Below, piece after piece: positions 27,910 through 44,240 of a DNA stretch of 64,000 nucleotides. A program made the position numbers and the translations under genes. Each line of letters begins with the position of its first letter. Position 1 is the first letter of the stretch. The notes beneath the pieces are model-generated. The model ran no database searches and was not told the DNA's origin. It saw only the letters and a list, made by a program, of their open reading frames with translations. Source of the DNA: Rhododendron vialii (Eukaryota; Streptophyta; Magnoliopsida; Ericales; Ericaceae); assembly GCF_030253575.1 (NCBI RefSeq), contig NC_080569.1:4775501-4839500 (forward strand). The letters are read 5' to 3'.

Positions 27910-29283
27910 AGTCTAATGATTTTGTCTAAGAGAGAGAGAGAGGGAACCTGATGGGTGTCGTGAGGCGGCGAAATGGCGTTGGAGGGGGAACAGAGTGGCG
28001 GCGGCGAAGTTGAGCGGCGACGGCGGAACGGTGATGCGGTGCTGGACCACCGGTAATGCAGCCCTACGGCAGTACGAAAGAGCACCTTACCAGAATCTTC
28101 TGCCCTTCATCTCGCTCTCTCTCCGAAAGAGCACCTTACCAGAATCTTCCGCCCTTCATCTCTCTCTCTCTCTCTCTCTCTCTTGCTCTCTCTCAAGCTC
28201 TCAAGCGCTCTTTCTCTCTCTCTATTCTGTCACTCTTTCTCTCTCTCTCACTCTCTCTCTTCTGTTACTGTATTCAGGCTCTCGGCACCCTCTCCCCATT
28301 ATAAAAGCTGTTATTCCCACCCCACGACACCGCCTCTCACCAACAAGACCAAAATGCCCCTAACTTCCACTTTCTTTTAACTAAATTCTTTTTGTTTAAT
28401 TCCTTAATTCTATTATCTTGTTTATTTAATTCATTTTTTATTTATTTAATTACTTATTTAATTTTAATTTGGTTAACTCAAATAATATTTTTAACTAAAA
28501 TATGTTTTTTACATTTAAATTTGACTTTATATTTAAGGCTCCATTCCCTTGAACTTAATTTAAATTTGGAAATTTTGTCTTTATTTGAATTTTTTTCAAA
28601 TTTATTAGTTTTGCGTTATTGATTCGTCTCGATGAGAAGAATTGAAGAAATATTTTTTTTCACTTTTATCCAAACATTTTGAGAAATAATCACTTTTTAG
28701 CAAAATACTTGGATAAAAGTAAAAAAAATTACCATCGGATCTGGGCTCTCTTCAATGCGATTGACCATTTACAAGGTTGGTAATTAAGGTTGTGGGCCCA
28801 ATTTACTTTCTGGTCGTATAATAAGACGTGTAAGACAACCCAATTAAGCTCAAAGATGGTATATGACGTCTAATGCTATCGGATCCGGATCCTCTTCAAT
28901 GCGATCGACCATTTACAAGAAACTATAGCAGTTAAGCGGGCTCTTAAACCCATCTTGTTGTACTCCTTTTACTTTCAAAAGAGAGGTTTGGCGTTCGTGT
29001 GGAGAGACGTTGAACCCTTTTTAATTTGTTAACTCACTAATTTTTTGCTAATCCCGACCACATTACACTTTTTAATTACTTGGTGTTCCTTGCAATTTCT
29101 CAAATTTAGAAACACTACTTGATAGAACGTGTGAGGGCTAGACAAGTTTATGTCTCCCTTAATTAGCGTTAGATTACGCTACTTTCCGTTAATTAGAAAC
29201 AATATCATTTCAGTTGTCTTATGTTTTAAATAAATTTTCCTGTGATAAAGTAAGCCATTTCCAAAGACATTTTGCCTAGCCAT
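27902..29283 (+). repeat. Inverted segmental duplication, copy A
   Basis: From CCAAACATAGTCTAATGATT to ATTTTGCCTAGCCAT, this ~1.38-kb block is repeated in reverse complement at 42315-43640 with high identity by eye. It covers the start codon, the CT-rich leader and the upstream DNA of the gene ending at 27909. The block includes (CT)n runs at about 28155-28260, which differ in length between copies. Confidence 0.9.
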
Positions 29284-32490: not shown

Positions 32491-32710
32491 CACCGGAACC
32501 TAACTCTAGATTATGAATCTAATTTAAGCAATATAAAAATTATGTTTTAGATTTTCCTGCAGCTTCGTCATAAAGTTATAAGAATCGCGTTCATATCCGC
32601 TTTTACTACAATTTATAAAGTCTCAATCTACAACATGCAAAATCAGTCTAAAAGTATAATGAAATAAGATACTCCAGCCGTGAATAGTTTTTTACGGAAG
32701 AAATAATTAA

Positions 32711-32760
32711 ATCGCGACCGTCCAAAACACTTTTGGACAACACTTTTGGACGGTCGTGAT
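32711..32760. repeat. Short hairpin beside the LTR element
   Basis: ATCGCGACCGTCCAAAA (32711) and TTTTGGACGGTCGTGAT (ending 32760) pair with one mismatch. It is probably the core of another small MITE, possibly the one into which the neighbouring LTR element inserted. Confidence 0.6.
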
Positions 32761-32807
32761 GCACCTCCTTAAACAGTTATTCACGAAAAGCGCTATGAGG
32801 AAGATAT

Positions 32808-35534
32808 TGTCACGCCCTCGATTTTCAACATAATTAAGTAATACATTTCAATAAAAGAGAAACCTCGCATATCATATACGTTACCCAAATGAGTTTCCCA
32901 CCTGTTTAATTTACAAACAAGTCCTTAAGTTTAGATAATTACAACTTTAGTCAAAAGAAAATTCAGTAATAATTAGTTACAAAACCACCTTTAACAAAAT
33001 GAGATCTTCACAAAGATGACGAAATAACCAGTGATGTCAGCTTCCAAAAGTCTTTTACTGTCAAGCACATAATGCATGCAATCTATTGCCCGGCATCAGA
33101 ACCTGAAAAGAAAGATTTGGTTGAGCTACACTAGCCCAGTAGAAAATTCTAAACTCAAGCTATATGCAATTTGAATGAACCATGCACCGAGAATGAATGA
33201 GTACTGACAGATACGCCTATACCACAAATGACTACCAACAAGCTGCGAATTATCGCCTAAGAGTCCTAGACTTCACATCAATGTCACTAGCCGTTTACTT
33301 CTTTAACTAGTTACATTATTAAACTCACGTCATCTCACACTTGTCTATAATCAAATCAAAACATCTTATTATTCTCCGTATGATAGTACAATCTTTCTCG
33401 TGTCCACATTGATCTTCATTAAATCCCTTAATTGCAAAACCTTTCTTTTTCTTTAATCCAGTATTTTTCATCAATAATCACTAGGGTCACCTCGGGTCTA
33501 GTTCCCTCGAGCGCAGGGTCACCCCGAGTCTTTTCCCTCAACAATAATAATCAGGTGGGGTCACCTTGGGTCTAGTTCCCTCGAGCGCAGGGTCACCCCA
33601 AGTCTTTTCCTCCAATAATATGAATCAGTTGGGTCACCTCGGGTCTAGTTCCCTCGAGCGCAGGGTCACCCCGAGTCTTTTCCCTCAATAACGACCGCTT
33701 TGGGTCACCTTTCACACTTTTCACAATCGACATCATTTCATAATCAATTTCATCATCCCTTTGATGGTTATACCACTGAATTTTAATTAATCATTACGTG
33801 ACTCCACAAATATACGTGTTCATGCCTTTTCATTAATTTAGCCACTCACGTTTGACATAGCATACTAAGCCCGTACATATAATCCTACCATACTTTATCC
33901 GTTAGTTTCTACACTTGAGCCTCATAGAGAGAGTGTCAAAGGATTAAAAGGCTTGACGAGTCGAGAGGACACTAGTTATTTCATCATTTCAAACAATTCT
34001 TTCTCACATCAATTTTCACTTCAAGCATTCCAAACAATCTACCAATCTACCACGTTGATTACATCTCAAACCGTTCCTAACTGTCATCCATATCAAGACT
34101 CGGACTAATTTATTATTACACGCCTATTCCTTTAAGTACACCATAATCTCACGCGTCCTCACCGTACCTCTAAGTACATTTCCCGTACCTTCACACGCCA
34201 CATATTAACCCACGACTAAACTTTACGACGCCTGATCATCTAGTTTCTATACTCGGAGTCCGTAAAAGCATGTACTAAACGAATCTAATAATTTTACGAG
34301 TCGAGAGAGAGAACGGATTGCAATACTACTCGTCGAATCCCTAGACATGTCCACTCTAGTCCATTGGATGCCACTCTCAGTGAGAAATGAGTAATACTCA
34401 CCAAAACACTTGGAAGAATACACAAACAAGCTCATTAGAGTCGATGAGAGGCTTCGACATGTAAGTTAAAAGATATAAGAAAGCAGCTGAAAGATACTGC
34501 AGCAGCTCAAGAAAGCAGCTGAAAGCAGCTCAAACTCCTAATCTCCTACCGGTAGGCAGGCAAGTCCTACCGGTAGAACTTGAAAACAAAAGGGCCAACA
34601 TCTGAACAAAGCCGCTTGACCTACCGGTAGGTAAAAAGTTCCTACCGGTAGAAGCACTTGACCTACCGGTAGGTGAGAAGTTCCTACCGGTAGAAATTGG
34701 GAACAGAAAGGTCAACAGTTGAACGAAATAATTTTTGTACTTGACCTACCGGTAGGTAATGAATTCCTACCGGTAGGAATCGAATTCGTTGAGCAGCTTT
34801 TGAGCTGCTGCTGTACGTTTGAGCTGGTTACGAAGGAATTTCTCAATCGTTCTACCGGTAGGTGAAGAGTTCCTACCGGTAGGGAATCGATTTTCTGGTA
34901 AATTAACAACGTTCTACCGGTAGAAAGGACGGGCCTACCGGTAGGAATCCAGGAAAAATAGACAATTCTGACAGCGACTACGAATTTTCAATCCAAACTT
35001 AAACACGACATTATAAGCACGATTCATGCACCAAATCACTCATAAAACATATAAAGAGAGGTAGAATTCCCTACCTCAAGTCGGGAAGCGAAACCCACGC
35101 AATTTGAGTAAGCCCTAGCTTCCGGAACCTCAAAATCAGTTGAATACTCCTCTCCGAGCTAGACCCAACTGAATACACGCTCAAGACCACGTACGGAGGG
35201 TGGAATGGAGGTCAATCTTCATGAGTTTTGAGAGTGGAGGTTGATTGGAGTTGATTTTGAGTGGGAGTGGAGGAGAGCCGAGAGAGAGATATGTGAGAGT
35301 TAGAGAGAGAGCCGAGAGATAGAAATGAGAAAGAGGAAAGCATTCCTCTGGGAATAATAGAGGTGGGGGAAATAATCCCATGCCCTCACACCACACACTC
35401 ACACATGCACCTCTCATCTATTTACCTTTATATCCTTCCACAAATGCGTCAATCCATATATCCATACCGTTTATCTCGACAAGCCGTACAGTTATATAAA
35501 AAAAAAATATAGGCCTAAAATACGGGTCTCTACA
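32808..35534 (-). repeat. Left LTR (3' LTR of the minus-strand element)
   Basis: 2727 bp, TGTCACGCCC...GGTCTCTACA on the plus strand. It includes a threefold ~75-bp repeat at about 33484-33709 (GGGTCACCTCGGGTCTAGTT type) and the CTACCGGTAG array at 34546-34944. Apparent small frames inside are identical in both LTRs and are not genes. Confidence 0.93.
34546..34944. repeat. Array of twelve CTACCGGTAG palindromes in the left LTR
   Basis: The perfect 10-bp palindrome CTACCGGTAG occurs 12 times in 399 bp, arranged as six pairs about 25-30 bp apart with longer gaps between pairs. Flanking bases often extend the symmetry (CCTACCGGTAGG). The same array is at 40452-40850 in the other LTR. Confidence 0.95.
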
Positions 35535-37913
35535 CCCTACCCTCCTTAAAAAAAAATTTCGTCCTCGAAATTAGATAAGGCAAGCCTAATCATGCCAAGC
35601 ATCACATCAACATACTCCAACTGTAACACTATCCATTATACAACAATTCAATTACCATCAAAGTCTATGTCTAGATTCACATCAAGCAAACCACAACAAA
35701 CACGCGTATATCTTTCGAACTTCGTACCCCCATTTCCACGTAACCATGCACTAACAACATCGGCTTACCTTTCAACAATGGACTACGCGAGTCTAAGGTA
35801 CGCATCGGTTTCTCATCATAGGACACTTGAGCTCCTAATTCAATTTCGGACCTTTCTAACACATGCAATGGATTTATTTCATACCTCCTCAATCTCCGTA
35901 TACATAATGCGTCATATATTTTGAAAAATTTAGGCAGCAACGTCAAACGGTTTACAGTTTCCAAACTTTTCTTTATTATACAAATCCCATACACAATTAT
36001 CTATCTCACCATTGAGATCTTACCTCCTAAGTATAACCAGATAATCCAATTGACTTCCCGAGACTTCCATCTAGAATGGGCGGTGATCAAGCGCCTCTTC
36101 CAAGTGGATTTCACCGGTTGTCGCCTGGGTATCCCAAAACACGCACATAGTGTCCGACACTTAAACTATCTTTTTGGTGAACGCTTCCTTTCTGCCCAAA
36201 ACGAGACAAACCCCAACGCAACTATGCTTTACGAAGTTCATGATTCTCCTTCTTCAAATAACATTAGGTGACGTCGACGGTCAACACAATCCTTTGGTCG
36301 GCCCTGCGCAGTTAGCAATCTTTGATGATCTTTACCTTTCTCTTTTCGGTCATTCTCCCTCGAGCTTCCAAATATCGTTGGCGAATCGAATTAATTGTTT
36401 TAGCGGGTCCATAACACAAGCCAGTTCTTCTAAAAGTCACACAAAATTTTCATTCTAGGTTGGGTCATTCTATATTACAAGAAGGATTCGATTTGTTATC
36501 TCAAACAAAACGAATAAGCTACAAAACTCAAGCAGCGTTAATCAAGAATTGGAAGAATGGAAACGAGGCATCTGAAATTTAGAGAGCACCTGGAATCTTT
36601 ATGGCGGTTCGGCAACAAACTCGAAGTACCTATTTATGCTAACCTAAGAGATTTGAAGTGACAGATCATAACTCTCTTATTGCTCTACAAGTCAGAGGAG
36701 TCAACGGATAACATTTTTCAAACGAAAGATTTCGATAGTAAGAATAAGTACCAGGTAATGAGACTGATCTCTCGCAAACCAATTGATCCAAAATAGGAAA
36801 TTTCCCATACTAGAAATGAGTAGAACTTTCAACAATTTGAGACTAAGCATTACAAGATGAATCATGTGCCTCCAGAATTGAGGAACCACGACAGAGTAAA
36901 ATACCATTGAAAGTAATTTCCACAATTGAATTTGTATCGAACGGTGTCAATGAATCAACATCAATAGATATGTCACCACAAGATTTGACTCCAACAATGG
37001 AAATTCGAACCAACCAAATAGGCAAGGGCAAACAAATAGATACAAAGCGGATGTGAGTTCAAATCATATGACTTCTTAGTCATGGGACCAAAATGGATGA
37101 TGGCCCAAGCAGGCAATAATGGGAACAAGGTCTAAATTTTGATAATGCTAACAAATTTGTATTTCATACGGTACATAGCCAAAGGTTGGGTTCAATAGAT
37201 TGATGTTGCAAATTAAATACTCATATGGAACAACGATTACAAGCAAACGACGAAAATGATAATCGCATCAAGGAAATCCAAACTGACCAATGAAAATTTA
37301 TCTCAAGCAGGGTAATGTCAAAATAAGACCTTGAATAGGGAACGAGAAACACTTGTCGAATTTGATAGCAACAGTGTCATAAGATTCTTCGCTACAAGAA
37401 TTTTAAATATGCCCAAGAAAAGCTAGGAAGGGATCGCATGACAATTGACTCAAATACTAAGAATTACAACAGGTCATCTACACACTGAATTTTACGGAAG
37501 AATAAATTACGATACAATTCTAACAATGTTCAGCTTGGCCAATGAAAGATGGTAATAAAAGAAACAACTCTTCTAAAATCACATTTGAGATATCACCAAT
37601 CATCATGGATACAACCAATCCCTGTCCAAATCAAATCAAATCTCGATATAAGCAATTTAAAGAGGTTGAAGGCAACACTTCAATATGGAATGATTAACCT
37701 CTAATCTGGGCAAATATGATCTATCGATATTTCTCAACACGCGTGGACTAAGATTTCTTATTTTCTATTCCAAACATGGACAAGAATAGGATTCTCAATG
37801 AGTGAAATGCTTCCAAATCAAAAGTATTGTAAAGAATGAGTAGAACAACTAGGAATAAATGATACCTCAAACAAATGACGCTTCTAAGAGTTAGAGAATA
37901 GGGGGGTGGTAGT

Positions 37914-38372
37914 TTAGTGGCGGAACTGCATCCGTTGTTGTTTCGACGTATGTGTTTCCTGCTGCATTGAGCTTGACTCACCATGCACTCCCAATCCCCG
38001 AGGACAATTCCTTGCCATGTGGCCACGTTCGCCGCAAGTATAACAAGATCCCCCACGCCATGGACATTGAGAACGAATATGACCAAACTGACGACATTGA
38101 TAACACACAGTCTGACACTTGAGAAGAGCTCTTGGAGTCCCGATATAAAGAGGTGGCTTAAAGCCCTGCTGGTCCTGAATAAAGTGATCTGATACTCTAG
38201 GTTTCTTCCTTCTTGAACTCTCAACACTCTCTGAAGATGATCTTGTGCTAATGACTCGATGCCTAGTTTCTCCCACATTCACACCACTTTGCGCACCTTC
38301 CAGTGTCTCGACACCTTTTCCGCACTCAACAATCTCAGGAAACATCGCTTCATCCTTGGTACATTGACCCAC
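37914..38372 (-). other. Gag-type zinc-knuckle region of the LTR element
   Basis: Two CCHC knuckles are visible, CYQCRQFGHIRSQC and CYTCGERGHMARNC, the nucleic-acid-binding motif of retroelement Gag proteins. This is the only protein signature found in the interior. It is a fossil part of the element at 32808-41440. Confidence 0.85.
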
Positions 38373-38713
38373 TTCATTCTCCCCGTTTGCACTACAACCT
38401 GGTGCTCACGATCCCTGGTCTCACCACACCTATCTCCACGTCTCGAAGACATCCTACTAAGGAAGCATAAGAAATGAAATCATCAACATTAGCCACCTAA
38501 TCCTGTGCTACAGGCCTCCAACCTTTCCAACCGAAGTCAACAACTTTATGCCACTATATTGTGATATATATATGCAATGTCACATCGACATACCGACTCT
38601 TCATGCAAGCACACATGTGATTTTGTAAAAAGATGCAGCAATGTTTGAACCCATGAGACTAAAAGTCTCCCCACGGTCTCGAGGTATTCTAAACTTATGC
38701 TCTGATACCAAGT

Positions 38714-41440
38714 TGTCACGCCCTCGATTTTCAACATAATTAAGTAATACATTTCAATAAAAGAGAAACCTCGCATATCATATACGTTACCCAAATGAGT
38801 TTCCCACCTGTTTAATTTACAAACAAGTCCTTAAGTTTAGATAATTACAACTTTAGTCAAAAGAAAATTCAGTAATAATTAGTTACAAAACCACCTTTAA
38901 CAAAATGAGATCTTCACAAAGATGACGAAATAACCAGTGATGTCAGCTTCCAAAAGTCTTTTACTGTCAAGCACATAATGCATGCAATCTATTGCCCGGC
39001 ATCAGAACCTGAAAAGAAAGATTTGGTTGAGCTACACTAGCCCAGTAGAAAATTCTAAACTCAAGCTATATGCAATTTGAATGAACCATGCACCGAGAAT
39101 GAATGAGTACTGACAGATACGCCTATACCACAAATGACTACCAACAAGCTGCGAATTATCGCCTAAGAGTCCTAGACTTCACATCAATGTCACTAGCCGT
39201 TTACTTCTTTAACTAGTTACATTATTAAACTCACGTCATCTCACACTTGTCTATAATCAAATCAAAACATCTTATTATTCTCCGTATGATAGTACAATCT
39301 TTCTCGTGTCCACATTGATCTTCATTAAATCCCTTAATTGCAAAACCTTTCTTTTTCTTTAATCCAGTATTTTTCATCAATAATCACTAGGGTCACCTCG
39401 GGTCTAGTTCCCTCGAGCGCAGGGTCACCCCGAGTCTTTTCCCTCAACAATAATAATCAGGTGGGGTCACCTTGGGTCTAGTTCCCTCGAGCGCAGGGTC
39501 ACCCCAAGTCTTTTCCTCCAATAATATGAATCAGTTGGGTCACCTCGGGTCTAGTTCCCTCGAGCGCAGGGTCACCCCGAGTCTTTTCCCTCAATAACGA
39601 CCGCTTTGGGTCACCTTTCACACTTTTCACAATCGACATCATTTCATAATCAATTTCATCATCCCTTTGATGGTTATACCACTGAATTTTAATTAATCAT
39701 TACGTGACTCCACAAATATACGTGTTCATGCCTTTTCATTAATTTAGCCACTCACGTTTGACATAGCATACTAAGCCCGTACATATAATCCTACCATACT
39801 TTATCCGTTAGTTTCTACACTTGAGCCTCATAGAGAGAGTGTCAAAGGATTAAAAGGCTTGACGAGTCGAGAGGACACTAGTTATTTCATCATTTCAAAC
39901 AATTCTTTCTCACATCAATTTTCACTTCAAGCATTCCAAACAATCTACCAATCTACCACGTTGATTACATCTCAAACCGTTCCTAACTGTCATCCATATC
40001 AAGACTCGGACTAATTTATTATTACACGCCTATTCCTTTAAGTACACCATAATCTCACGCGTCCTCACCGTACCTCTAAGTACATTTCCCGTACCTTCAC
40101 ACGCCACATATTAACCCACGACTAAACTTTACGACGCCTGATCATCTAGTTTCTATACTCGGAGTCCGTAAAAGCATGTACTAAACGAATCTAATAATTT
40201 TACGAGTCGAGAGAGAGAACGGATTGCAATACTACTCGTCGAATCCCTAGACATGTCCACTCTAGTCCATTGGATGCCACTCTCAGTGAGAAATGAGTAA
40301 TACTCACCAAAACACTTGGAAGAATACACAAACAAGCTCATTAGAGTCGATGAGAGGCTTCGACATGTAAGTTAAAAGATATAAGAAAGCAGCTGAAAGA
40401 TACTGCAGCAGCTCAAGAAAGCAGCTGAAAGCAGCTCAAACTCCTAATCTCCTACCGGTAGGCAGGCAAGTCCTACCGGTAGAACTTGAAAACAAAAGGG
40501 CCAACATCTGAACAAAGCCGCTTGACCTACCGGTAGGTAAAAAGTTCCTACCGGTAGAAGCACTTGACCTACCGGTAGGTGAGAAGTTCCTACCGGTAGA
40601 AATTGGGAACAGAAAGGTCAACAGTTGAACGAAATAATTTTTGTACTTGACCTACCGGTAGGTAATGAATTCCTACCGGTAGGAATCGAATTCGTTGAGC
40701 AGCTTTTGAGCTGCTGCTGTACGTTTGAGCTGGTTACGAAGGAATTTCTCAATCGTTCTACCGGTAGGTGAAGAGTTCCTACCGGTAGGGAATCGATTTT
40801 CTGGTAAATTAACAACGTTCTACCGGTAGAAAGGACGGGCCTACCGGTAGGAATCCAGGAAAAATAGACAATTCTGACAGCGACTACGAATTTTCAATCC
40901 AAACTTAAACACGACATTACAAGCACGATTCATGCACCAAATCACTCATAAAACATATAAAGAGAGGTAGAATTCCCTACCTCAAGTCGGGAAGCGAAAC
41001 CCACGCAATTTGAGTAAGCCCTAGCTTCCGGAACCTCAAAATCAGTTGAATACTCCTCTCCGAGCTAGACCCAACTGAATACACGCTCAAGACCACGTAC
41101 GGAGGGTGGAATGGAGGTCAATCTTCATGAGTTTTGAGAGTGGAGGTTGATTGGAGTTGATTTTGAGTGGGAGTGGAGGAGAGCCGAGAGAGAGATATGT
41201 GAGAGTTAGAGAGAGAGCCGAGAGATAGAAATGAGAAAGAGGAAAGCATTCCTCTGGGAATAATAGAGGTGGGGGAAATAATCCCATGCCCTCACACCAC
41301 ACACTCACACATGCACCTCTCATCTATTTACCTTTATATCCTTCCACAAATGCGTCAATCCATATATCCATACCGTTTATCTCGACAAGCCGTACAGTTA
41401 TATAAAAAAAAAATATAGGCCTAAAATACGGGTCTCTACA
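38714..41440 (-). repeat. Right LTR (5' LTR of the minus-strand element)
   Basis: 2727 bp, essentially identical to the left LTR at a constant offset of 5906 bp. It carries the second CTACCGGTAG array (40452-40850) and the second threefold repeat. The primer-binding site lies just to its left (38700-38713). Confidence 0.93.
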
Positions 41441-41587
41441 GATATTCTCTAGTATTCAAAAAAAAAAAAAGAAGAAGAAGCCCCAAATACACTCTACATG
41501 ACAACTAGATTATGGTGCAAATTTTGAGAACGGTATATCTGTATCACTGTGAACAATCCTTTTCTTGTCTTGTTTTGAGTCTAAAAA

Positions 41588-42314: not shown

Positions 42315-43640
42315 CATGGCTAGGCAAAATGTCTTTGGAAATGGCTTACTTTATCACAGGAAAATTTATTTAAAACCTAAGACAACTGAAATGATATTGT
42401 TTCTAATTAACGGAAAGTAGCGTAATCTAACGCTAATTAAGGGAGACATAAACTTGTCTACCGCTCACACGTTCTATCAAGTAGTGTTTCTAAATTTGAG
42501 AAATTGTAAAGAACAACAAGTAATTAAAAAGTGTAATGTGGTTGGGATTAGCAAAAAATTAGTGAGTTAACAAATTAAAAAGGGTTCAACGTCTCTCCAC
42601 ACGAACGCCAAACCCCTCTTTTGAAAGTAAAAGGAGTACAACAAGATGGGTTTAAGAGCCCACTTAACTGCTATAGTTTCTTGTAAATGGTCGATCGCAT
42701 TGAAGAGGATCCGGATCCGATAGCATTAGACGTCATATACCATCTTTGAGCTTAATTGGGCTGTCTTACATGTCTTATTATACGACCAGAAAGTAAATTG
42801 GGCCCACAACCTTAATTACCAACATTGTAAATGGTCAATTGCATTGAAGAGGGCCCGGATCTGATGGTAATTTTTTTTACTTTTATCCAAGTATTTTGCT
42901 AAAAAGTGATTATTTCTCAAAATGTTTTGATAAAAGTGAAAAAAAATATTTCTTCAATTCTTCTCATCGAGACGAATCAATAACGCAAAACTAATAAATT
43001 TGAAAAAAATTCAAATGAAGACAAAATTTCCAAATTTAAATTAAGTTCAAGGGAATGGAGCCTTAAATATAAAGTCAAATTTAAATGTAAAAAACATATT
43101 TTAGTTAAAAATATTATTTGAGTTAACCAAATTAAAATTAAATAAGTAATTAAATAAATTAAATAAACAAGATAATAGAATTAAGGAATTAAACAAAAAG
43201 AATTTAGTTAAAAGAGAGTGGAAGTTAGGGGCATTTTGGTCTTGTTGGTGAGAGGCGGTGTCGTGGGGTGGGAATAACAGCTTTTATAATGGGAAGAGGG
43301 TGCCGAGAGCCTGAATACAGTAACAGAAGAAGAGAGAGAGAGAGAGAGAGAAAGAGTGACAGAATAGAGAGAGAGAGAGAGAGAGAAAGAGCGCTTGAGA
43401 GAGAGAGAGAGAGAGAGATGAAGGACGGAAGATTCTGGTAAGGTGCTCTTTCGTACTGCCGTAAGGCTGCATTACCGGTGGTCCAGCACCGCACCACCGT
43501 TCCGCCGTCGCCGCTCAACTTCGCCGCCGCCACTCTGTTCCCCCTCCAACGCCATTTCGCCGCCTCACGACACCCATCGGGTTCCCTCTCTCTCTCTCTC
43601 ACAGTCTCTTTCTTAGACAAAATCATTAGACTATGTTTGG
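42315..43640 (-). repeat. Inverted segmental duplication, copy B
   Basis: This is the reverse complement of 27902-29283. Homology stops at ATGTTTGG, just after the start codon of the gene whose 5' region is contained in copy A, so copy B has leader and upstream DNA but no gene body. The microsatellite lengths differ. Confidence 0.9.
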
Positions 43641-44240
43641 TCGCGCACACTCTTTTTACAGAGAAATTGACGGCTGAGATTTCAAGAAACCCTATGCGGT
43701 GAAAAGTGTTGGGCTCCTACTAACTAACCTTGTGGCCGCCATTGATGATGAGTTGTTTTTTTTTTTTTGATAAGTGATGATGAGTTGTTTGGAGCTATGT
43801 AAATCCACTGTTTCTTCGTTCCTGTCAGCAACGGTAAAAATTTAGCAGCACAAAGTCACAAATCCTTTCTCTCTCTAATATCCCCTCCCTCCTTCTCTCT
43901 CTCTAGATTTCTGTTGAGAACCAGAGGTTGACCTGAATCAATAAATCGAGGGTGAAATGGAGAAGCTCAGAAATGAAAATGTGGACCAATTTAGCGAATA
44001 GTGCCTTCTAATTAGCGGGAAATAACAGAGGAAAACTGCAATTCGCCAGCAATTTTGGAGAATTTTGTCGAAAAACAGTTAATGCAGAACAAATTCAAAC
44101 TCAGTACCTAATAATTCAACAATTGACACGAACAGTGAAACTCGATTTTGGTTTGAAAAAAACAGTGAGTAAGCTATTTGGAAAAACGTAGAGTACCGAC
44201 TCTACACGCACACAGAGTCACAGAGAGAGAGAGAGAGGAA
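43641..44240. other. No supported gene
   Basis: AT-rich with CT runs at about 43868-43905. It may be an intron of the minus-strand transcript suggested at 44247-44498 but shows no clear exon. Confidence 0.35.

Follow-up and report, generated by a model that had tools for sequence, protein, structure and literature searches.

The long terminal repeats (LTRs) of a retrotransposon in the window (the whole 64-kb stretch of plant DNA that was analysed) each contain twelve identical copies of CTACCGGTAG, a ten-letter palindrome, set as six pairs of constant spacing. The DNA itself shows where the sites are, how they are spaced and that they are invariant next to spacers that have diverged. With moderate confidence, we interpret the array as a cluster of twelve candidate sites for a sequence-specific protein, which would bind CTACCGGTAG cooperatively, in dimeric form or as a pair of facing monomers.

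The retrotransposon and its palindrome array

The element has the features by which LTR retrotransposons are recognised: near-identical direct LTRs with TG...CA ends, a target site duplication, a primer binding site and a polypurine tract. The LTRs, both of 2727 bp and both on the minus strand, occupy positions 32808-35534 (3' LTR) and 38714-41440 (5' LTR), and the duplicated target GATAT is found in identical form at 32803-32807 on the left and 41441-41445 on the right. The polypurine tract adjoining the 3' LTR (35535-35547) and the primer binding site TGGTATCAGAGC (38699-38710), which we take to be of the initiator Met tRNA type, were identified on the minus strand by direct reading of the sequence. 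Part of gag, including two zinc knuckles of the CCHC type, is found on the same strand at 37914-38405 (PF00098, two stretches, E 8.7e-12), and the orientation of the element, on the minus strand, follows from these three features together. Its primer binding site and 3' end resemble those of the Tekay/Del-like chromovirus group of Ty3/gypsy elements. A single base, at 35014, distinguishes the two LTRs over their 2727 bp, so the insertion must be very recent; this, together with the 5-bp duplication on both sides, agrees with the initial annotation, which had described the element as young.

The interior spans 35535-38713 (minus strand, 3179 bp). The pol domains expected of an autonomous LTR retrotransposon (protease, reverse transcriptase, RNase H and integrase) were not found by Pfam in 10 of the 31 listed stop-to-stop frames, all 10 on the minus strand, which gave zinc knuckles only. 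Since no pol domain was detected, this copy probably moved in trans. Further copies of the LTR or of the interior were not found in the window at E 1e-3, all 49 BLAST rows falling inside the element. Two stretches on opposite strands, 27920-28363 and 43225-43716, flank the element from outside and have open frames with long peptide stretches in common. The genes of the window, which include a pantoate ligase, LRR receptor kinases and a proteasomal ATPase domain, point to a flowering plant.

There are 24 exact matches to CTACCGGTAG in the window, twelve at 34546-34944 and twelve, with a shift of 5906, at 40452-40850 in the other LTR, neither array having an assigned strand. None occur elsewhere, and in 100 dinucleotide shuffles of the whole window the word appeared on average 0.03 times and at most once. 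The initial annotation had reported twelve palindromes forming six close pairs in both LTRs and had considered them beyond chance. Our counts and shuffles agree on both points, and the pairing turns out to be even more regular than it had described. Within the LTR the array covers positions 591-989 of 2727, and its pairs, each built as 10+11+10 bp, are found at 34546-34576, 34621-34651, 34663-34693, 34746-34776, 34852-34882 and 34914-34944. A single CG, as part of CCGG, is present in each site, for which sensitivity to methylation is possible. The observed/expected CpG ratio is 0.86 for the LTR, 1.03 for the array and 0.67 for the window outside the element; the LTR is not depleted of CpG overall, and retention of the CG in the palindromes is nothing special in itself.

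Other repeated words are found in the same LTRs. A second array, in which a 73-bp unit is repeated about three times and shows GGGTGACC...GGTGACCC when read on the element strand, covers 33476-33691 and again 39382-39597 in the other LTR. Beside the palindromes, at 34480-34539, there is a cluster of AGCAGCTGAAAG / GCAGCTC words, of which more copies occur inside the array. Words that we take to be of the W-box type (GGTCAA, or TTGACC, on the element strand) are located at 34616-34621, 34658-34663, 34710-34715 and 34741-34746, three fused to palindromes and one between pairs, with the same set in the other LTR; about 0.4 would be expected in 399 bp, and three of the four derive from duplication.

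Divergence around the palindromes

Near copies of the palindrome are absent from the LTR, where twelve words match CTACCGGTAG exactly, none have one or two mismatches and three have three mismatches. Outside the element (55,377 bases) no word has fewer than two mismatches, eight have two and 84 have three, so that words with three mismatches are common there and those of the LTR can be considered background. When the six pairs are aligned, all 20 palindrome columns are invariant versus one of the 11 spacer columns and none of the 28 flanking columns. The difference between palindrome and spacer columns is significant by Fisher's test (p 2.5e-7), a comparison biased by the choice of sites as exact matches, to which the lack of near misses answers only in part. 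The initial annotation had proposed asking, in other copies of the LTR, whether the palindromes are kept better than their spacers, and between repeats inside the present LTR they are.

The array contains its own duplications, and these provide a way to compare copies of common origin. The longest aligns LTR 755-875 with 880-992, with 10 gap positions including the end gaps and four palindromes on each side. None of the 40 palindrome bases differ in this alignment versus 25 of the 72 aligned bases outside (p 2.9e-6), the aligner having been anchored on the exact palindrome copies. In three shorter comparisons 8/29, 14/30 and 10/19 bases differ outside the palindromes and 0/20 inside each time (p 0.015, 0.0002 and 0.0001, respectively). 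If a 10-mer evolved neutrally at the divergence of its surroundings, its chance of remaining unchanged would be 1.4%, and twelve intact copies would require an initial number of about 850. These figures describe conservation between repeats that are related by duplication, within one LTR of one element in one window, and at this scale they argue that the palindromes behave as conserved sites and that the word itself has been kept. The conservation is symmetrical, and the symmetry often extends further out; the bases at -1 and +1 are complementary in eight of the twelve sites, with p 0.003 on the assumption, not valid here, that the copies are independent.

The same comparisons bear on a simple and functionless recent tandem expansion. 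The initial annotation had named a simple recent tandem expansion in one copy as one of two cases against its own reading, the other being an array scrambled or absent in other family members. Neighbouring pairs do lie in a 42-bp repeat with 94% matches, and the longer duplication, of about 115 bp, retains 74% identity. However, spacer identity averages only 53% among the six pairs, and the differences within the long duplication fall entirely outside the palindromes and not evenly along the unit. With the spacers diverged and the palindromes intact, a fresh and even tandem expansion does not describe the array; we have rejected it in that form and regard a functionless expansion in general as very unlikely. 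Neutral upkeep is another way in which the word could stay perfect in the absence of selection, if hairpin template switching during reverse transcription or repair corrected quasi-palindromes. Paired arms that are self-complementary would lend themselves well to this mechanism. Template switching would nevertheless equalise the two arms of one pair and not the arms of all six, nor would it fix a spacing of 21 bp in every pair, and we consider it quite unlikely as the explanation.

Position, geometry and possible function of the array

Several signals in the LTR bear on where the array lies with respect to transcription. TATA-like words are found at LTR 37 and 103, followed by a pyrimidine-rich stretch (LTR 151-300, 71% C+T). 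One of the eight donor-like words in the LTR, GAG/GTAGGG, would start an intron at LTR 461, and the one acceptor-like site found ends at LTR 2432 (0.1 expected by shuffling). Taken together, these weak signals suggest that the array is located within a leader intron (LTR 461-2432) and not upstream of the start site. The initial annotation had placed the palindromes in a regulatory region, which is still likely, but the region concerned may be downstream of the start site instead of in U3.

If transcription starts near LTR 103-150, as these signals may indicate, the array would be part of the transcript, which would allow a role at the level of RNA. The pairs could form hairpins in the transcript, or the self-complementary 10-mers could join two genomic RNAs for dimerisation or packaging. 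Every pair can indeed form a hairpin with a stem of 10-11 bp and a loop of 9-11 nt, and the first base of the spacer (G in six of six) can pair with the last (C in five, T in one). The region also folds far better than shuffled sequences (z -10.5 and -12.9 for the RNA of the two strands, -11.0 for DNA), although the palindromes alone suffice for strong folding. Searching 32700-41500 against Rfam at E values up to 1 yielded three matches, none of which came near its gathering score; two of them correspond to one stretch of the array, found in both LTRs (mir-490, E 0.099). Stems require complementarity only within a pair, yet one word is found in all six. Each arm of the hairpins is moreover a palindrome in itself, and there are 0 changes in 120 bases, including those that G-U pairing would tolerate. 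Hairpins in RNA alone thus do not explain the identity of the sites, and we consider this role unlikely. A cruciform at single sites, another suggestion of the initial annotation, is improbable on grounds of size and was rejected, because a 10-bp palindrome leaves no room for a loop; it is the pairs that can form hairpins in single strands.

The geometry of the array favors the reading of the palindromes as candidate protein-binding sites. The distance from start to start within pairs is exactly 21 bp in six of six cases, which corresponds to two turns of B-DNA, and the neighbouring pairs at 34621 and 34663 are also separated by 21 bp. Successive pairs are less evenly spaced: between the start of a pair's second palindrome and the start of the following pair, in element order, the distances are 41, 85, 62, 21 and 54 bp. 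All six pairs lie on one helix face; in a scan of periods between 6 and 60 bp, 10.5 bp gave the largest mean vector, with R 0.935. This common phasing has p 0.0046 and 0.0039 under two null placements, in both of which the pairs were kept together with the tandem unit of 42 bp, and it is suggestive, since only four gaps are free and these share a common history.

In such an array each of the six two-site modules, with centres two helical turns apart, could hold two adjacent dimers on a single face of the double helix, and the high density of sites on one face would favor cooperative binding of the protein to the LTR. Once bound, the protein might open or activate the LTR promoter or keep it free of silencing. 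Being part of the LTR, the array is present at either end of each copy. The binding protein could be a host factor or the product of an autonomous partner element, given that pol was not detected in this copy and gag is represented by a fragment. The idea of dimer sites had already been raised by the initial annotation and is supported in so far as the palindromes, which look like such sites, have been kept and the spacers have not. We infer the binding, the dimeric state and the effect on the element from these patterns in the DNA. More tentatively, the array could represent an "enhanceosome" or anti-silencing platform borne by the transposable element, in which a plant or element protein reading TACCGGTA palindromes through two-dimer, two-turn modules would shield the family from methylation; this stronger version is possible, and we hold it with low confidence.

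We have found no known factor that matches CTACCGGTAG, and one candidate class fits poorly. The sites could be paired AC elements of R2R3-MYB proteins (ACCTACC / GGTAGGT facing each other), such as occur in defence-induced LTR promoters, with WRKY-type sites as neighbours of some of the palindromes. CTACC/GGTAG is the inner part of AC-I, seven half-sites in the LTR read ACCTACC (four) or GGTAGGT (three), and three palindromes run into GGTCAA, presumably a W-box type motif, with one more such word between pairs. According to the available part of PMC3669277, however, AtMYB61 requires the outer ACC, its Kd being 9 nM on ACCTAC and >5 uM on GCCTAC. Only 7 of the 24 half-sites have the required outer bases, and the AC element is therefore not what is invariant; we have rejected AC-element MYB sites as the conserved word, and an array of paired AC elements is highly improbable.

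If other copies confirm the pattern, the array would give the exact DNA word and the geometry on which a recently active plant retrotransposon depends, and the search for the bound protein would become a direct experiment. It would also be a plant LTR that preserves the sequence of its sites, their spacing in pairs and perhaps their helical phasing while the intervening DNA changes.

Related patterns and comparison with known systems

The pair pattern was matched in public collections at 31 loci, of which seven belong to viral contigs and 24 to genomes of prokaryotes; these searches may leave out records of the window's own genome. The surroundings of all 31 loci were inspected, with a tandem-repeat scan of 10 of them; none resembled this LTR. 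The scanned loci (L008, L011, L016, L017, L018, L019, L021, L025, L027 and L028) lie in bacterial contigs with 21-bp tandem arrays of CTACCGGTAG or near variants, in which the other bases vary and which reach 28 units (L018). More than one such locus was found in the Prevotellaceae MAG Im510_bin102 and in Bacillus litorisediminis. As these loci were selected by the pair pattern, their period of 21 bp is no surprise. A search with the pattern of the gag fragment matched four viral stretches, none of which was a relative by tblastn. In open-licence literature we found no plant or retroelement title among the seven papers containing CTACCGGTAG, nor a described LTR family with this array among the titles, abstract starts and best matches listed. 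The word TACCGGTA corresponds to the promoter motif M94 of Phytophthora infestans in the available part of PMC3597505 and occurs also in a paper on Plasmopara (PMC10031896); we have considered these oomycete occurrences unrelated to the plant array.

By analogy, the array would work most like the VANC motif arrays of VANDALs, the Su(Hw) repeats of the gypsy insulator and the BII boxes of Tnt1, and we assign it to none of them. VANDALs are DNA transposons, the gypsy insulator is located outside the LTR, and Tnt1 is a Ty1/copia element whose BII boxes have another sequence and fewer copies than the array described here. We know of no pairing at 21 bp in the gypsy insulator and of no fixed two-turn pairs among the BII boxes.

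The VANC target arrays of Arabidopsis VANDALs resemble the present one in being dense repeats of a short motif, with tandem duplication, in non-coding sequence of a plant transposon, and their silencing is relieved by a sequence-specific protein that binds the motif (available parts of PMC5735166 and PMC10398659). The VANC motifs described in those parts, YAGTATTAY or AGTTGTMC, are in single orientation, whereas here a palindrome forms strict 21-bp pairs; the string "palindrom" is absent from the text of PMC5735166. VANDALs also encode VANC, and no such gene was found in this element, the ten interior frames tested with Pfam, without a VANC model, showing no second gene. A VANDAL body was rejected as well, the LTRs, primer binding site, polypurine tract and 5-bp target duplication being those of an LTR element.

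In the gypsy insulator of Drosophila there are likewise twelve repeated binding sites in non-coding sequence of a retroelement (available part of PMC2493044). The Su(Hw) sites, however, are located in the 5' untranslated region, have a different motif and bind an animal protein, whereas the palindromes are in the LTR; the words "helical" and "spacing" are absent from the text of PMC2493044. The BII boxes of Tnt1 in tobacco are, like the candidate sites here, located in a plant LTR, where they bind defence-induced factors (PMC3316501, available part). Along these lines, the LTR of the tomato element Rider carries U3 binding sites that are linked to stress and differ in occurrence from species to species (PMC6762207, available part), but these are several distinct sites, whereas the LTR described here has an array of one palindrome.
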